A stretch of DNA of 32,390 nucleotides from an uncultured Saprospiraceae bacterium (GTDB lineage: Bacteria > Bacteroidota > Bacteroidia > Chitinophagales > Saprospiraceae). Location: assembly GCA_938008185.1 (NCBI GenBank), contig CALLLR010000190.1, positions 1 to 32,390 of the forward strand, given 5' to 3'. Of the stretch, positions 25,178-31,293 are shown piece by piece (positions within the stretch are counted from its first letter, which is position 1; each line of letters begins with the position of its first letter). A model generated the notes under the pieces. The model made no database searches and was not told the DNA's origin. It saw only the letters and a list, made by a program, of their open reading frames with translations. Made by a program: the position numbers and the translations under genes.

Positions 25178-26617
25178 TTGAAAAAAATAAAAGTCATTCA
25201 GCCAGATGCGTTTCAAGCGGAAAATCATTGGTATCCAAAGGCGCTGAACGCTACGATTCATCCGATGATTAACTTTTTCCTCAATTTGGAGCAAGAACGA
25301 ATCGTGACGCGGTATTGTCACCTTCATCCAACGGTAAACGGGGACAAATTAAGAGAGATTCTCAAATATAAGCCCAAGTATTTTTTGTGGGGTGGTGCTG
25401 ATTTGTTGAATGTTACTTCTTCGGGCGGCAAGCGGCAAATGGTGGTTATCGAAAATAACTCCTGCCCATCGGGGCAAAAATCCATGCCGCTTCTCGATGA
25501 TAACAAAGAACAGGGCAGCTACCGGTTGATGATTGAACGAACTTTTAAACCATACCTGAAAAATCTCAGGAAAAGTATTCAGGGAGGACTGGCCGTAATT
25601 TACGACAAAAACCCAATGGAGGTTTCTGGTTACGCCGAAGTGATCGCGGACGTGATGCAGGAACCGGTTTACTACATCAGTTTTCCCAAAGATGATCCAG
25701 AATCGAAGGTTCGATTTGAAAATGGTATTATGCAGATTCTGAACGAAGAAAACGAATGGATACCGATTCGGGCGGCTTTTCGATATTTGACCCAGAAACC
25801 CTGGAACCGTCTGCCTTTACATTCAAAAACCAGAATTCTAAACCCCATCATTGCTTGCCTGGCGGGTGGTAGAAATAAAATGGTAGCTGCCAAGGCCTAT
25901 GATATATTTAATGCCGAACTGGAAGGCTTTGGACTCAAAATTAATACGCCGGAAACCATTTGGGATGTCCGAAAAAATGAAATTCCAGTATGGGTGAAAA
26001 AAATGGGTGGACACGCCGTCATCAAAGTTCCCTACAGTAACGCAGGGCAGGGCGTTTATACCATTGTATCAGAGGAAGAGCTGGATAAATTTATGGAACT
26101 AGAATTTGACTACGATCTCTTTATCGTACAAAGTCTGATTGGAAATTCTAACTGGAGTAGCAACACCTCCAAAGGTAAACTCTATCACGTGGGGACGATT
26201 CCAAATCATAAAAATCACACTTTTGTAGCGGACGTACGAATGATGGTTAGTGCCACGGAGGATGGGATTAAACCTTTGTGTACCTACGCCCGGCGCGCCG
26301 AAAAGCCGCTGGTAGATCACCTCAAAGAAGGGGCAGAAAGCTGGTCTATGCTGGGGACTAATTTGTCCATAAAAAATGAAGATGGTTCCTGGAGTAGTGA
26401 TACCAATCGTTTGTTATTAATGGATCGCCGTGATTTTAATAAGCTGGGAATTGGTCTGGATGACTTGATTGAAGCCTACATTCAAACGGTCCTTTCGATG
26501 GTCGCCATCGACAACATGGCAAAAATGCTAATGAATAAACAAGGTAAATTTAAAATACGTCTATTTAAAAGTTTGAACAATGATCAGAGCTTGCTGGACG
26601 AAATAATGCTTGATTAA
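25178..26617 (+). CDS. Probable circularly permuted ATP-grasp protein, first gene of the ligase cluster
   Basis: The 479-residue soluble protein resembles the circularly permuted ATP-grasp family by pattern rather than by close similarity. IENNSCPSGQ (91-100) matches that family's N-terminal E-x-N...PSG motif. LNPIIACLAGGRNKMVAAKAY (221-241) lies where the family has its N-x-x-G...DDK motif. VIKVPYSNAGQGVY (281-294) looks like the ATP-binding Lys/Gly-rich segment (Lys283). FIVQSLIG (315-322), DVRMMV (352-357) and YARRA (370-374) follow in the expected order. Such enzymes activate a carboxylate with ATP and join it to an amine. The start is TTG (25178). The stop overlaps the next start by one base (TAATG), showing translational coupling to a second ATP-grasp enzyme. 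The substrate is unknown, and a non-catalytic role cannot be excluded. Confidence 0.65.
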   Translation: MKKIKVIQPDAFQAENHWYPKALNATIHPMINFFLNLEQERIVTRYCHLHPTVNGDKLREILKYKPKYFLWGGADLLNVTSSGGKRQMVVIENNSCPSGQKSMPLLDDNKEQGSYRLMIERTFKPYLKNLRKSIQGGLAVIYDKNPMEVSGYAEVIADVMQEPVYYISFPKDDPESKVRFENGIMQILNEENEWIPIRAAFRYLTQKPWNRLPLHSKTRILNPIIACLAGGRNKMVAAKAYDIFNAELEGFGLKINTPETIWDVRKNEIPVWVKKMGGHAVIKVPYSNAGQGVYTIVSEEELDKFMELEFDYDLFIVQSLIGNSNWSSNTSKGKLYHVGTIPNHKNHTFVADVRMMVSATEDGIKPLCTYARRAEKPLVDHLKEGAESWSMLGTNLSIKNEDGSWSSDTNRLLLMDRRDFNKLGIGLDDLIEAYIQTVLSMVAIDNMAKMLMNKQGKFKIRLFKSLNNDQSLLDEIMLD

Positions 26618-27615
26618 TGGAAAAATATAAAGTGCTGGTACTAACGGATCATACTGGTCACAGCAAAGAAAATTCGTTGTATGCGTTGGTTACTGAAATG
26701 AAGGTACATCCGAATACGGATCAAATTGATATTGCTACGCGGGGAAATTTGAGCAATAAGGATTTTTTTAATCAAGTAAAAAACGCAACGTTGTGGGTAA
26801 CGAAAGTCACGGAAGATTTTGCTTTTAGTGAAAATGGAAAACACCTCAACGCTGATTTGTTCGTAGCAGCATTAAATAGTTACGACTTGATATGGCTGCG
26901 AATGCCACCACCACTGAGCAAGTCTTTTTTGGATTTTTTAGAAACGGTTTTTGCCAAAAAAATGATCGTTAATGATCCAAAAGGAATTTACAAAACGGGT
27001 AGTAAAGAATTTCTTCTGAATTTCCCAACCTGCTGCCCACCGATGAAAGTTTGTCGTAGCAAAGCCGAGATCATCGCGTTTAAATCTCAATTCCCAATTG
27101 TTCTAAAACCCTTTCGGGAATACGGTGGAAAGGGGATTGTGAAAATAGCCGGAGACGAAGTTTCACTGGGAAAAGAAAAAATACCTTTTGCCCAATTTTT
27201 AAACGGTTTGACACCAGGTAAATTTGAATACCTGGGAGTGAAATTTTTGAAAAATGTCCAGCAAGGAGATAAGCGAATTATTGTCGTAAACGGAAAAATT
27301 CTGGGCGCTTCACTGCGCCTGCCGGCCAAGGATTCCTGGCTCTGTAACGTAGCGATGGGAGGCAAGTCCATCGTTTCGGAGGTCGATGAATCGGAGCGGA
27401 AAATTGTAGCAACCATTAACCCTGTTTTAGCAAAAATGGGGATTGCAATGTACGGAGTAGATACCCTGGTTGGAGATAATGGCCAACGAATTTTATCAGA
27501 AATAAACACCACAAGTATTGGTGGATTACCACAGGTAGCAGCGCAGCAAAATCTGCCTCTGGTCGCGGAGGCAATTGATTTAATCTGGCAGTTTTTTTTA
27601 CAAAAAAATAAATAA
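26617..27615 (+). CDS. GshB/RimK-type ATP-grasp ligase
   Basis: The 332-residue cytoplasmic enzyme has the glutathione-synthetase ATP-grasp layout. An N-terminal Rossmann-like part (1-115) is followed by IVNDPKGIYKTGSKEFL (117-133) and IVLKPFREYGGKG (161-173, ATP-contacting Lys164). GDKRIIVVNGKILG (217-230), NVAMGG (244-249) and YGVDTL (279-284) come next, and metal-binding Glu295 and Asn297 lie in SEINTTSIGG. The family forms an amide bond between a carboxylate and an amino group with ATP hydrolysis. gshA is not present here, and the neighbours do not fit glutathione synthesis, so a different peptide or amino-acid conjugate is likely. One-base TAATG overlaps tie it to the genes on both sides. 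Confidence 0.85.
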   Translation: MEKYKVLVLTDHTGHSKENSLYALVTEMKVHPNTDQIDIATRGNLSNKDFFNQVKNATLWVTKVTEDFAFSENGKHLNADLFVAALNSYDLIWLRMPPPLSKSFLDFLETVFAKKMIVNDPKGIYKTGSKEFLLNFPTCCPPMKVCRSKAEIIAFKSQFPIVLKPFREYGGKGIVKIAGDEVSLGKEKIPFAQFLNGLTPGKFEYLGVKFLKNVQQGDKRIIVVNGKILGASLRLPAKDSWLCNVAMGGKSIVSEVDESERKIVATINPVLAKMGIAMYGVDTLVGDNGQRILSEINTTSIGGLPQVAAQQNLPLVAEAIDLIWQFFLQKNK

Positions 27616-28598
27616 TGATGACTGAATCGGTAGATGATAAGGCAGCAGTAGTAGAAGTTCTGGATTTTTCGAAAGCTCCTAAAGGAGCGATTTCCAGATA
27701 CTGGCTGGAAGTTGTAAAAGATGGAATGGGGTTACCCGTATTAATTCCCGTGATTGTTGCCAGAGGAAAGGAAGATGGAAAAACGGTAGGGATTACGGCC
27801 GCTGTGCACGGAAATGAACTGAATGGGATTCCGGTTATCCAGCGCTTATTTAACGAATTGGATGTTGATAATCTGCGGGGAACCATCGTGGGAATTCCCG
27901 TGGTTAATGTTCCCTCTTATTTGCGAAAAAAGCGAAGATTTTTAGATGGGACCGATCTGAATCATATTATGCCCGGTAAAGAAAACGGAACCGTGAGCCA
28001 GGTGTACGCGTGGCGAGTAGTTGAAAAAGTGATCAAGCAATTTGATTATCTATTAGATTTGCACACGGCGAGTAATGGGCGCGTCAATTCTTACTATATC
28101 CGGGCCGACATGAGTGATGAGGTCGTACGCGAAATGTCTCTCCTCCAAAACGCACAGATTATTGTTCACAATCCGCCCAATGATGGTACGCTGAGAGGAA
28201 CTGCTGATGAGCTGGAAATTCCGGCCATAACGCTAGAAGTAGGGAATCCAAATTTATTTCAAAAAGGGATGATTCGGGATGGCTTGACGGGTATACACAA
28301 TTTGTTGGGGTATTTAAAAATGACGGACTCGGAGGTAGAAGCACATTCCAGTGAGACGGTTCTTTGTAAGAAATCTTACTGGATGTATACCGATACTGGG
28401 GGACTTTTGAGTGTCCTTCCCAATGTGACGGATTTGGTAAAAAAAGGAGAAGTAGTAGCCAGACTAAGTAATTTATTTGGAGATTTGATTAAGGAATATG
28501 TGGCGCCGGAAGACGGGATTGTAATCGGTAAAAGTGTGAGTCCCGTCAATCAGGCTGGAGGACGGATTTTGCATCTGGGGATTGTAAAGAAAAAATAA
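27615..28598 (+). CDS. Succinylglutamate desuccinylase/aspartoacylase-family zinc amidohydrolase
   Basis: The 327-residue M14-like metallo-hydrolase has zinc ligands His65 and Glu68 in AAVHGNELNG and His150 in LLDLHTAS, the DLNHIMPG motif (114-121) and the catalytic Glu208 in ITLEVGNPN. The C-terminal third is the beta domain common in AstE/AspA relatives, ending GGRILHLGIV. Members remove an acyl group from an amino-acid nitrogen. Placement directly behind two ATP-grasp ligases suggests that it trims or deprotects the ligated product, or hydrolyses it in a cycle. It starts inside the stop of the preceding gene (TAATG, with a second ATG directly after). The specific substrate is not known. 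Confidence 0.87.
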   Translation: MMTESVDDKAAVVEVLDFSKAPKGAISRYWLEVVKDGMGLPVLIPVIVARGKEDGKTVGITAAVHGNELNGIPVIQRLFNELDVDNLRGTIVGIPVVNVPSYLRKKRRFLDGTDLNHIMPGKENGTVSQVYAWRVVEKVIKQFDYLLDLHTASNGRVNSYYIRADMSDEVVREMSLLQNAQIIVHNPPNDGTLRGTADELEIPAITLEVGNPNLFQKGMIRDGLTGIHNLLGYLKMTDSEVEAHSSETVLCKKSYWMYTDTGGLLSVLPNVTDLVKKGEVVARLSNLFGDLIKEYVAPEDGIVIGKSVSPVNQAGGRILHLGIVKKK

Positions 28599-28608
28599 AA
28601 TTAGCAGA

Positions 28609-28737
28609 AATAAACTTTATTACGAATACGATAAAGGACGCAGAAACGGCTTCCATATGATGCACCGAAAAACTTCCCAGTCCATCATCAAGCACTTAAA
28701 AGTGTTGCAAAAGCGGAAGATTATTCCAAAATATTAG
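28609..28737 (+). pseudogene. Possible short gene remnant in the spacer
   Basis: A 42-codon open stretch ends in TAG and reads like a protein tail (YYEYDKGRRNGFHMMHRK, then KHLKVLQKRK). The only ATGs (28657, 28660) leave about 26 residues. It fills the 203-bp gap between the amidohydrolase and the nitrilase genes. No family was recognised; it may be a fragment of a degraded gene or chance. Confidence 0.2.
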
Positions 28738-28801
28738 ATCACTTTTTTGCTCTATCCATTTAAATTATTCCTATTTTACCTTCTAACTTTCTTCTCCCTT
28801 T

Positions 28802-30037
28802 ATGAAAATCTGCCTCGCCCAAACCAAGTCCTCCAACGGCGAGCTGCACCAAAATCTACAAGAACACCTGCAGACCATCCAACGGGTCGTGGAGTGGGGT
28901 AGTGATTTGGTGGTCTTCCCCGAATTGTCGCTGACGGGCTATGAGCCGGCGTGGGCGGAGAAACTTGCGCGTGAACCAGGCGATCAGATTTTTGAGCCCT
29001 TACAAAAAATAGCCGATCGGGAACATATATCCATCGCTGTAGGAATGCCTTTGAGAACACGGAAGGGCATTGCAATCGGGATGCTCATTTTTTGTCCGGA
29101 TGCCGAGCGGCTGGTTTACGCAAAACAAATTCTACACGAAGACGAGCTACCATATTTTGTGGCTGGAGAAAATCAGGTGCTTTTAAATATTAAAGAATAT
29201 AAAATTGCATTCGGGATTTGTTACGAAGCCTTGCAACGGAAGCATTTCCTAAGGGCCTGCGAAGCCGGAGCGACCGTCTATCTGGCCAGCGTTGCGAAGC
29301 CGGAGCGCGGGATGACCAAAGCAAATACTCATTTCGCGAAGATATCTGCTGAATTTTCAATACCGATCTTAATGGTCAATGCCGTTGGTTTCTGCGATGA
29401 TTTTATGGCGATTGGACAATCTGCTTTTTGGGATGAGAACGGACGGCAAATTAATCAACTTGACGACCGTCCTGGTGTTTTACTAATTGATCTGACCACT
29501 AAAGTTACCGAAAAGCATTATTTTGAAATGGTTTTTCCAAGCATTCATCCCGCAGAACAGAAAGATTTAGCTGCGTTGGTCTCCCTTTTTAGTGATGCAA
29601 AACGAGCGCTGGATGATCAAAATATTTTTCAATGGACGGATCATTATCCCTCAAAAGCGATCATCGAAAAAGATTTGAATGCGGGAACGCTTTTTATTTT
29701 AAAAAAAGACCAGGGGATCATTGGCGCAATCACTTTGAACGAACACCAGGATCCCGAGTACCAATCAGTTGACTGGAAACCGGGGGCTGCCAGAGTGCTG
29801 GTGGTTCACCGACTCGTCGTCGATCCTGGGTATCAGCGACGGGGATATGCTAAACAGCTTATGGATTTTGCCGAAGCCTACGCCGCGGCCAACCACTATG
29901 ATTCTATTCGGCTGGATACTTATACAAAGAATAAAGTCTCCGTTGAGTTTTATAAAAAACGAAAATATATAGTCCGGGGAAAAGTCTTTTTTGCGGGCAG
30001 ACTGGATCCTTTTTATTGTTTAGAAAAAGAAATTTAA
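28802..30037 (+). CDS. Carbon-nitrogen hydrolase (nitrilase superfamily) fused to a GNAT acetyltransferase
   Basis: A 411-residue two-domain enzyme. Residues 1-260 are a nitrilase-superfamily amidase with the Glu-Lys-Cys triad: Glu41 in VVFPELSLTGYE, Lys108 in YAKQILHEDE and Cys140 in FGICYEAL. Residues 265-411 are a complete GNAT domain with the acetyl-CoA loop VVDPGYQRRGYAKQLM (339-354), the IRLDTYTKN strand and a C-terminal FYCLEKE. The fusion could hydrolyse or transfer an amide and acylate an amine of the same molecule. It lies 203 bp behind the amidohydrolase on the same strand, so it may be a separate transcript of the same pathway. The ATG start gives an intact first strand (MKICLAQ). 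Both active sites look functional. Confidence 0.87.
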   Translation: MKICLAQTKSSNGELHQNLQEHLQTIQRVVEWGSDLVVFPELSLTGYEPAWAEKLAREPGDQIFEPLQKIADREHISIAVGMPLRTRKGIAIGMLIFCPDAERLVYAKQILHEDELPYFVAGENQVLLNIKEYKIAFGICYEALQRKHFLRACEAGATVYLASVAKPERGMTKANTHFAKISAEFSIPILMVNAVGFCDDFMAIGQSAFWDENGRQINQLDDRPGVLLIDLTTKVTEKHYFEMVFPSIHPAEQKDLAALVSLFSDAKRALDDQNIFQWTDHYPSKAIIEKDLNAGTLFILKKDQGIIGAITLNEHQDPEYQSVDWKPGAARVLVVHRLVVDPGYQRRGYAKQLMDFAEAYAAANHYDSIRLDTYTKNKVSVEFYKKRKYIVRGKVFFAGRLDPFYCLEKEI

Positions 30038-30114
30038 AAATAACGTGTAGTTTTACGTTCAACGAATCAGGATGCTATCTTACTTTTGGGCCATCCATAT
30101 TATTCTCTAATCTA

Positions 30115-31293
30115 ATGCTTCGGATGACTCCGCTCAATCCAATTTTTGCTTTGCTTGTTTTTGGGATCGGATTTCTGACGACCTGCCTGATTGGTCAGCG
30201 GAAGCAGGCGGTAAAATCTGTGGCCAATCGTTATGATACTTTGGATGGATTGCGGGGATTTTTGGCTATTTCCGTTTTTATTCATCATACGACTGTTTGG
30301 TATGGATATTTACAAACAGGGACTTGGTCGGAACCCGGTTCCAATTTATATAATCAGCTGGGGCAGTCAAGTGTGGCGCTATTTTTTATGATTTCCAGTT
30401 TTTTATTTATTGGTAAATTGTTGAATTTTAGTGGAGAAGAATACGACTGGCGAGGATTCTTTACAGGGAGATTTTTCCGGATTGTTCCATTATATTTATT
30501 AAGTTTCAGCCTGGTCGTTTTGACCGTCGGGATTTTAAGCGAATGGACTTTACAGGTTTCTATTTTTGATTTTTTAAAGAACTTGATCCGTTGGGCTGGA
30601 CTAGGAATTTTGGGGCAGCCGGATTTGAACGGCGTTGATTATACGACGACAATTAATTCCTTTGTGAACTGGTCTTTACTCTATGAATGGCTGCTTTATT
30701 TTTCGTTGCCACTGATCGCTATTTTTATTTTAAAAACCAAACCAAGGATTTATTATATACTATTGGGAATCCTATTTATTGCTTTTGCGATGCGGTACCG
30801 CGATTTAAAACTGGAACATCTCTCTTCCTTATTGGGGGGCGCAGTTGTGGCAGTTATTGATAAATTTCAAAATTTTAAAATAAATTTTAATCATATTGTT
30901 TTTACCCTGATTACAATTGTCGTACTGGTGCTGGTGGTTCAATTCAGAGACTCTGGAAACTGGATTTGTAAGTCTTTTTTAGTCCTGGCTTTTATGTTTA
31001 TTGCTTTAGGAAATGATCTTTTTGGATTGCTAAAAAATAAGACCCTGAAATTGATGGGAGACATCAGCTACAGCACTTATTTGTTACACGGAATACTGAT
31101 TTTTATCGTTGTTCATTTTGGATTGGGAGTAGCGGAAACCCGGTTGTTGTCCGGGTCTTCATACTGTTGGGTAATGGTGGCCCTGACGCCGATTTTGATG
31201 GGCGTGAGTTTTATGACTTATGCTTTTATTGAAAAACCATTTATAAAATATTCAAAAAGTATTCGGAAAAAAGGAGTGATCGTTAATAAATGA
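30115..31293 (+). CDS. Integral membrane acyltransferase (acyltransferase 3 / OafA type)
   Basis: The 392-residue polytopic inner-membrane protein has about ten hydrophobic helices. The family's conserved Arg and His occur in YDTLDGLRGFLAISVFIHH near the N-terminus, with FRIVPLYLLS, STYLLHG and EKPF further on. The family transfers acetyl or longer acyl groups to sugars, lipids or peptides at the membrane. The track ORF starts at 30016 inside the nitrilase-GNAT gene. The ATG at 30115 is preferred because it places the first membrane helix at the N-terminus and avoids the overlap; 30124 is also possible. With 77 bp to the upstream gene it is probably in the same transcript and could acylate or export-modify the cluster's product, which is inference. 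Confidence 0.82.
   Translation: MLRMTPLNPIFALLVFGIGFLTTCLIGQRKQAVKSVANRYDTLDGLRGFLAISVFIHHTTVWYGYLQTGTWSEPGSNLYNQLGQSSVALFFMISSFLFIGKLLNFSGEEYDWRGFFTGRFFRIVPLYLLSFSLVVLTVGILSEWTLQVSIFDFLKNLIRWAGLGILGQPDLNGVDYTTTINSFVNWSLLYEWLLYFSLPLIAIFILKTKPRIYYILLGILFIAFAMRYRDLKLEHLSSLLGGAVVAVIDKFQNFKINFNHIVFTLITIVVLVLVVQFRDSGNWICKSFLVLAFMFIALGNDLFGLLKNKTLKLMGDISYSTYLLHGILIFIVVHFGLGVAETRLLSGSSYCWVMVALTPILMGVSFMTYAFIEKPFIKYSKSIRKKGVIVNK

Follow-up and report, generated by a model that had tools for sequence, protein, structure and literature searches.

Positions 25,178 to 31,293 of the window (the whole 32,390-nucleotide stretch analyzed here, contig CALLLR010000190.1 of an uncultured Saprospiraceae bacterium) carry five open reading frames, referred to as genes A to E, which span 6.1 kb and all lie on the + strand at the coordinates at which an earlier note on this DNA had placed them. 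The first three, A-B-C, are predicted to encode two ATP-grasp ligases and an amidohydrolase and form the conserved unit described below. The five genes are as follows (values in brackets are Pfam E-values unless stated otherwise).

25178..26617, + strand: gene A, 479 residues, predicted circularly permuted ATP-grasp ligase from a family that Pfam lacks (AlphaFold 2, hereafter AF2, and Foldseek)
26617..27615, + strand: gene B, 332 residues, GshB-like ATP-grasp ligase (GSH-S_ATP, PF02955, 4e-29; structure 1gsa)
27615..28598, + strand: gene C, 327 residues, AstE/aspartoacylase/DoeB-like zinc amidohydrolase (AstE_AspA_cat, PF24827, 3e-31)
28802..30037, + strand: gene D, nitrilase-GNAT fusion, outside the conserved module (CN_hydrolase 9e-21 and GNAT 5e-17)
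30016..31293, + strand: gene E, OafA-type membrane acyltransferase, likely start ATG 30115, outside the conserved module (Acyl_transf_3, PF01757, 3e-23)

The Pfam domains agree with the earlier note on the GshB-type ATP-grasp enzyme B, the AstE-type amidohydrolase C, the nitrilase-GNAT fusion D and the membrane acyltransferase E. The one-base overlaps that it described among the first three genes are likewise seen at the A/B junction (...GATTAATGG at 26617) and the B/C junction (...AAATAATGATG at 27615), with D and E following on the same strand. Gene A starts at a TTG codon at 25178, and the same TTG serves as the start in each of the five genus members examined. The one-base overlap at the stop of A recurs in 33 of 99 distinct loci, which is more than expected by chance.

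Genes A, B and C are inherited together. Of 80 loci taken from named genomes, 75 have B and 73 have C in the neighbourhood of A, and among 100 distinct A loci the corresponding counts are 84 and 85. Across 61 relatives, A and true orthologues of C are shared by 19 genomes with 3 discordant (Fisher p 1e-12), and A and B by 18 genomes with 4 discordant (Fisher p 2e-11); the discordant cases include a contig that stops just after A (genome G021) and a divergent A paralogue (G019). The three genes reside on different contigs in several genomes (e.g. G007 and G026), so that their co-inheritance goes beyond linkage. Conservation of gene order in relatives was a check proposed with the original reading, and the order A-B-C is kept in different genera as well as in some further families, supporting the conclusion that it is a co-inherited three-gene unit. 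Of the 398 genomes of the family, 218 carry gene A, as do only 9 of 396 genomes drawn across the phylum, four of these nine lying outside the family, and Kordia has a 74%-identical copy of A together with the whole cluster. Cultured carriers of the module are Kordia jejudonensis and Flavilitoribacter nigricans. This patchy distribution suggests that the cluster has moved by horizontal transfer. A literature search for the cluster components together found nothing, though the cluster may have been described before.

The product of gene A eludes sequence profiles. Searches with it returned nothing in Pfam at E < 1 and nothing in NCBIfam, no match to PF03738 (GSP_synth), and nothing meaningful in the PDB by phmmer and hmmsearch; 53 members of its family, the window protein included, gave no significant Pfam match. 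The similarity to ATP-grasp profiles on which the earlier note had staked its one-pathway idea was not significant in Pfam or HHalign, and a sequence-only assignment of A was rejected since phmmer, hmmsearch, Pfam/NCBIfam and HHalign all lacked a significant match. Its fold was modeled with AF2 from a 53-row alignment, yielding a predicted local distance difference test score (pLDDT) of 89.6 and a predicted template modeling score (pTM) of 0.92. When compared with the PDB by Foldseek, this model matched a putative glutathionylspermidine synthase (3n6x, E 1.4e-8), Cp1B (9cjn, E 1e-7), E. coli YgiC (E 5.5e-7), and the yeast, potato and human glutathione synthetases, with E-values from 1.4e-8 to 1e-6, a probability of 1.00, and alignments of 370-455 columns that cover most of the chain. 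A first model from 21 rows was poorer (pTM 0.85, with a pLDDT below 50 at the active-site motif) and already matched the permuted ATP-grasp class, YgiC appearing among the top matches only with 53 rows; the probability of 1.00 holds for both models, whose alignments differed in depth.

Members of the A family are 48-91% identical and share about 100 invariant columns across genera, among which the following motifs were located.

25448..25489, + strand: IENNSCPSGQKSMP, residues 91-104, in which E92-x-N94 is predicted to bind metal (nearly all positions invariant in 53-103 members)
26018..26056, + strand: VIKVPYSNAGQGV, residues 281-293, with predicted ATP-binding K283 and a glycine-rich loop (K283, P285 and N288-V293 invariant)
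26231..26239, + strand: D352-x-R354, the D-x-R motif of ATP-grasp enzymes (invariant; assigned by analogy)

The motifs occur in the order E-x-N (VIENNSCPSGQKSMP), lysine/glycine loop (VIKVPYSNAGQGV), Q, and D-x-R. Residues E92 and N94, whose roles are assigned by analogy, are N-terminal to K283 and invariant in 53 members. An E-x-N motif ahead of the lysine loop is the circularly permuted ATP-grasp order, so the motif order and the modeled fold bear out the earlier call of a permuted ATP-grasp enzyme even though profiles miss it. Together, the models support a remote placement of A in the permuted ATP-grasp fold class, as a family without a Pfam entry.

Comparison with known members of this class reveals both likenesses and differences. 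CP_ATPgrasp_2 (PF14403), represented by the top match 3n6x, also has E-x-N ... PSG ahead of the lysine/glycine loop, but A has no hidden Markov model match to it and its ExN-PSG spacing is off by one residue. YgiC and YjfC, described as peptide-spermidine ligases (Pederick 2023, as cited in PMC12568646), and glutathionylspermidine synthetase (PF03738) share with A the fold class and, as proposed below, the ligation of a carboxylate to a polyamine. In contrast to these enzymes, A lacks PF03738, its partner is AstE-type rather than a GspA amidase, and there is an extra GshB-like ligase. Cp1B, from the E-64 pathway, is a standalone amide ligase whose pathway includes a pyridoxal phosphate-dependent decarboxylase and an amine building block; it differs in being fungal and about 12% identical to A, and in coupling a dicarboxylate with an amino acid, the amine being added by another enzyme, and no AstE-type hydrolase was seen in the description of that pathway. 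A divergent subfamily of A (48% identity) occurs at two loci (L136 and L039) with neither B nor C nearby.

Gene B is related to GshB. Its product scores 101.6 bits against PF02955, above the gathering score of 23, and matches E. coli GshB (1gsa) with an E-value of 1.7e-17, the E-x-N and ATP-grasp motifs of the two aligning. However, it falls below the cut-offs of both GshB equivalogs (143.8 versus 272 bits for NF003573 and 129.7 versus 299 bits for TIGR01380), and gshA does not accompany it consistently. PF04262, one of two gshA families, was found in none of 61 genomes, and GCS2, canonical forms of which are rare, is absent from 8 near-complete genomes that carry B. As to the lack of a gshA marker remarked on previously, neither of the two GshA Pfam families tested is consistently present, and glutathione synthesis by B is weakened as a candidate function. 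The window genome does encode a 641-residue protein whose match to GCS2 is weak and split (L175:853-2778, G000:C55); it is present across the genus and, judged by eye, seems to carry a C-terminal pair of CBS domains.

The protein encoded by gene C scores 108.7 bits against PF24827 and retains the H-E-H zinc site and the glutamate of this family, as detailed below (counts are from 86 family members).

27807..27818, + strand: HGNE, predicted zinc ligands H65 (85 of 86) and E68 (86 of 86)
27963..27965, + strand: H117, which replaces the arginine of the usual DLNR motif (histidine in 77 of 86)
28062..28064, + strand: H150, predicted third zinc ligand (86 of 86)
28236..28238, + strand: E208, predicted catalytic glutamate (86 of 86)

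Its closest relatives in the PDB are DoeB-type (3na6 and 6twl, the latter DoeB). C thus shares with AstE, aspartoacylase and DoeB the domain, the zinc ligands and the catalytic glutamate, but differs in scoring below all of the equivalog cut-offs (70.5 versus 402.7 for DoeB, 26 versus 305.65 for AstE, and likewise for AspA) and in the change of the DLNR arginine to histidine. At this position all eight RimK-linked paralogues of C have an arginine. In M14-type enzymes, an Asn-Arg pair touches the carboxylate that the freed amino acid carries. The loss of the arginine in C is suggestive, as it would fit an amine leaving group that lacks an alpha-carboxylate. Other C-like genes occur in the same genomes. 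At three loci (L029, L069 and L079) a second, more divergent C paralogue that retains Arg117 adjoins A, and in the genome of the first of these (G029) the other copy of C lies beside B on a different contig. The window genome also holds a RimK-like ligase paired with an AstE-like hydrolase (L167, G000:C51) that is 25-30% identical to C and retains the DLNR arginine, and equivalents of this pair are widespread among relatives.

A feature that the earlier note had missed is the recurrent link of A to polyamine synthesis. In the 100 distinct A loci, a SpeA-type arginine decarboxylase lies near A in 33, an agmatinase (SpeB) in 30, and a member of the deoxyhypusine synthase (DHS) family, homospermidine-synthase-like, in 27. 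The order A-SpeA-SpeB-DHS-B-C on one strand is found at L058, L064, L069, L072, L077, L082, L086 and others, and elsewhere SpeA lies upstream of A in divergent or parallel orientation, or downstream of it in parallel or convergent orientation, giving five arrangements in total. On the A tree, SpeA changes between linked and unlinked at least 20 times, a figure inflated by contigs that end short and were counted as unlinked. SpeA is within 12 kb of A in at least 54 of the 218 A genomes, where chance would give about 0.5% in a 5-Mb genome; among the matches listed, this corresponds to 54 of the 83 genomes with both genes, a fraction biased upward because the SpeA matches listed are the more similar ones. 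Also among the matches listed, SpeA proteins at least 75% identical to the cluster type come from an A genome in 62 of 67 cases, as compared to 14 of 44 for those below 70%. The SpeA neighbour is an Orn/Arg decarboxylase whose best match, the biosynthetic arginine decarboxylase, is below its cut-off; the agmatinase is above its cut-off; and the best match of the DHS neighbour is a 'homospermidine biosynthesis protein', below its cut-off. SpeY, a DHS homologue, is a homospermidine synthase, and the clustering of hss with gss in some bacteria has been interpreted as potential glutathionylhomospermidine synthesis (PMC9992855). Given the recurrent linkage to SpeA, SpeB and DHS, a polyamine is the amine substrate that the neighbourhood points to. 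An obligatory role for DHS was rejected, as it shows no co-occurrence with A.

Other neighbours of A were also catalogued, and no transporter or tailoring gene recurs near A among the families examined. A DksA/TraR-zinc-finger-like protein, a response regulator and a histidine kinase follow one another at L028:3319-6217 (families f6, f8 and f9) and occur near A in 11-19 loci as possible regulatory neighbours. A small protein of about 90-137 residues without a Pfam match (family f7; L026:13292-13588, L072, L077, L137 and L141) is found at 18 loci, where it either separates DHS from B or immediately precedes A; it has the conserved core 'KDYEKL..PYGFEKKLIQFKN..GKFVSALPFETDD.YYLIRMT' and a variable, very acidic tail, and may be a protein partner or target.

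Reversible polyamine conjugates are known in enterobacteria and trypanosomatids. Our preferred, tentative reading is that A-B-C constitutes a reversible polyamine-conjugation module. In this scheme, A would activate a carboxylate as an acyl phosphate and couple it to one of the primary amines of a polyamine, either homospermidine or putrescine, supplied by the SpeA-SpeB-SpeY-type genes that often lie inside the cluster. B would carry out a second ligation that builds or extends a small peptidic acyl part, and C would hydrolyze the amide of the conjugate to free the polyamine. A and C would then correspond to the two halves, synthetase and amidase, of glutathionylspermidine synthetase/amidase, and the module could plausibly, though this is a provisional view, be an analogue of glutathionylspermidine metabolism assembled from different enzymes. 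We infer the substrates, the direction of the steps and the identity of the acyl part, and also the formation of an identical product in the window genome, where the polyamine genes lie elsewhere. A pair of carboxylate-amine ligations plus an amide hydrolysis by the AstE relative, much as put forward in the earlier note, remain the natural reading of A, B and C; the roles it gave to D and E were not supported. More doubtful, yet possible, is the broader proposition of an undescribed pathway, found in the Saprospiraceae-type family and patchily outside it, in which two ATP-grasp ligases, the first of them from the permuted family that Pfam lacks, make a polyamine-peptide or polyamine-amino-acid conjugate and an AstE-type hydrolase reverses the process, resembling trypanothione or glutathionylspermidine metabolism with different parts.

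Several observations weigh against a polyamine-conjugation module. In HHalign, A scored E 0.04 against GSP_synth and 0.10 against CP_ATPgrasp_2, non-significant values next to the 0.2-0.5 of unrelated controls, and the template modeling (TM) scores of its fold matches are only 0.33-0.43. A separate GSP_synth (PF03738) protein is encoded in the window genome (G000:C131), and the genus also has one, so A is not needed for that role. SpeA is not nearby in 67 of the 100 A loci, many of them on short contigs. In the genus of the window, DHS is present in none of 7 genomes and SpeA is on another contig, and the polyamine link there is therefore carried over from orthologues in other genera. Nor do A and DHS show co-occurrence in the 61 genomes (p 0.16), which indicates that homospermidine is not required for the module. 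Some clusters consist of A and C without B (L034, L108, L113 and L139-L142), which suggests that the minimal pair is A plus C, with B introducing variation in the acyl part; the four B-less clusters of the phylum draw (L132-L135) all retain the arginine in C.

It is rather unlikely, though the most viable of the alternatives, that the products of A, B and C assemble and trim a small peptide or a pseudopeptide, such as a glutathione-like thiol, an osmolyte or a secreted natural product, using agmatine derived from arginine or no polyamine at all, with the polyamine operon nearby for shared regulation or supply. B is closest to GshB, the fold class of A includes ligases that do not act on polyamines (glutathione synthetases and Cp1B), the Cp1B pathway ends on agmatine as its last building block (PMC12568646), and SpeA alone is the commonest polyamine neighbour of A. 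However, agmatinase and DHS usually follow SpeA and would drain agmatine to putrescine, the glutathione form conflicts with the missing GCS2 and PF04262 families, and a recurrent transporter or tailoring gene is lacking among the families examined. We consider it improbable that an acidic protein tail is extended with residues or polyamines by A and/or B in the manner of RimK, with C trimming them and f7 as a candidate target. The last 40 residues of f7 are 30-62% Asp/Glu, these genomes also contain paralogous RimK-AstE pairs, and C is related to AstE, but f7 accompanies only 18 of the 100 A loci, is not near A in the window and has no known fold or family, and B is nearer to the small-molecule ligase GshB than to RimK. 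That A is not catalytically an ATP-grasp ligase, its fold match being a remote structural similarity, would accord with the absent Pfam match, the non-significant HHalign scores and TM scores of about 0.4, but is very unlikely given the Foldseek probability of 1.00 to many permuted ATP-grasp enzymes from two models and the invariance of the ATP-grasp motif residues in an extremely conserved family. Finally, the original proposal that all five genes form one pathway is largely refuted and has almost no likelihood left: despite five same-strand genes within 6.1 kb and a different GNAT-nitrilase fusion near polyamine genes at 8 loci, a D homologue neighbours the module in just one of 80 loci (the nearest relative, of the same genus, with the nitrilase domain only), an E homologue is near A in none of the 80, and 203 base pairs separate C from D.

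D and E were accordingly rejected as pathway members, their positions as neighbours not being conserved; the overlap between them is nominal only, E having an in-frame ATG at 30115. The C-D gap contains a short open stretch (window 28599-28740, ending '...KHLKVLQKRKIIPKY*'), perhaps what is left of a lost gene. The GNAT-nitrilase fusion seen elsewhere (family f10; L028:1489-3027, L055, L059 and L116) is a 512-residue protein with a domain order opposite to that of D; it is near A or the polyamine genes in those 8 loci and inside the SpeA-SpeB-DHS stretch in two. No plasmid carriage of the cluster was found, and the PADLOC models for anti-phage defence gave no matches to any of the five proteins, and a defence-system identity was rejected.

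Because A, B and C are soluble and of single-domain size, the proposal of a polyamine-conjugation module is directly testable. If it is true, an unannotated system for tying up and releasing polyamines would be present in over half of the genomes sampled from a major family of activated-sludge and marine bacteria, and the strongly conserved A family, which has no Pfam entry, would gain a testable function. Polyamine-conjugation chemistry would then seem to have arisen more than once.

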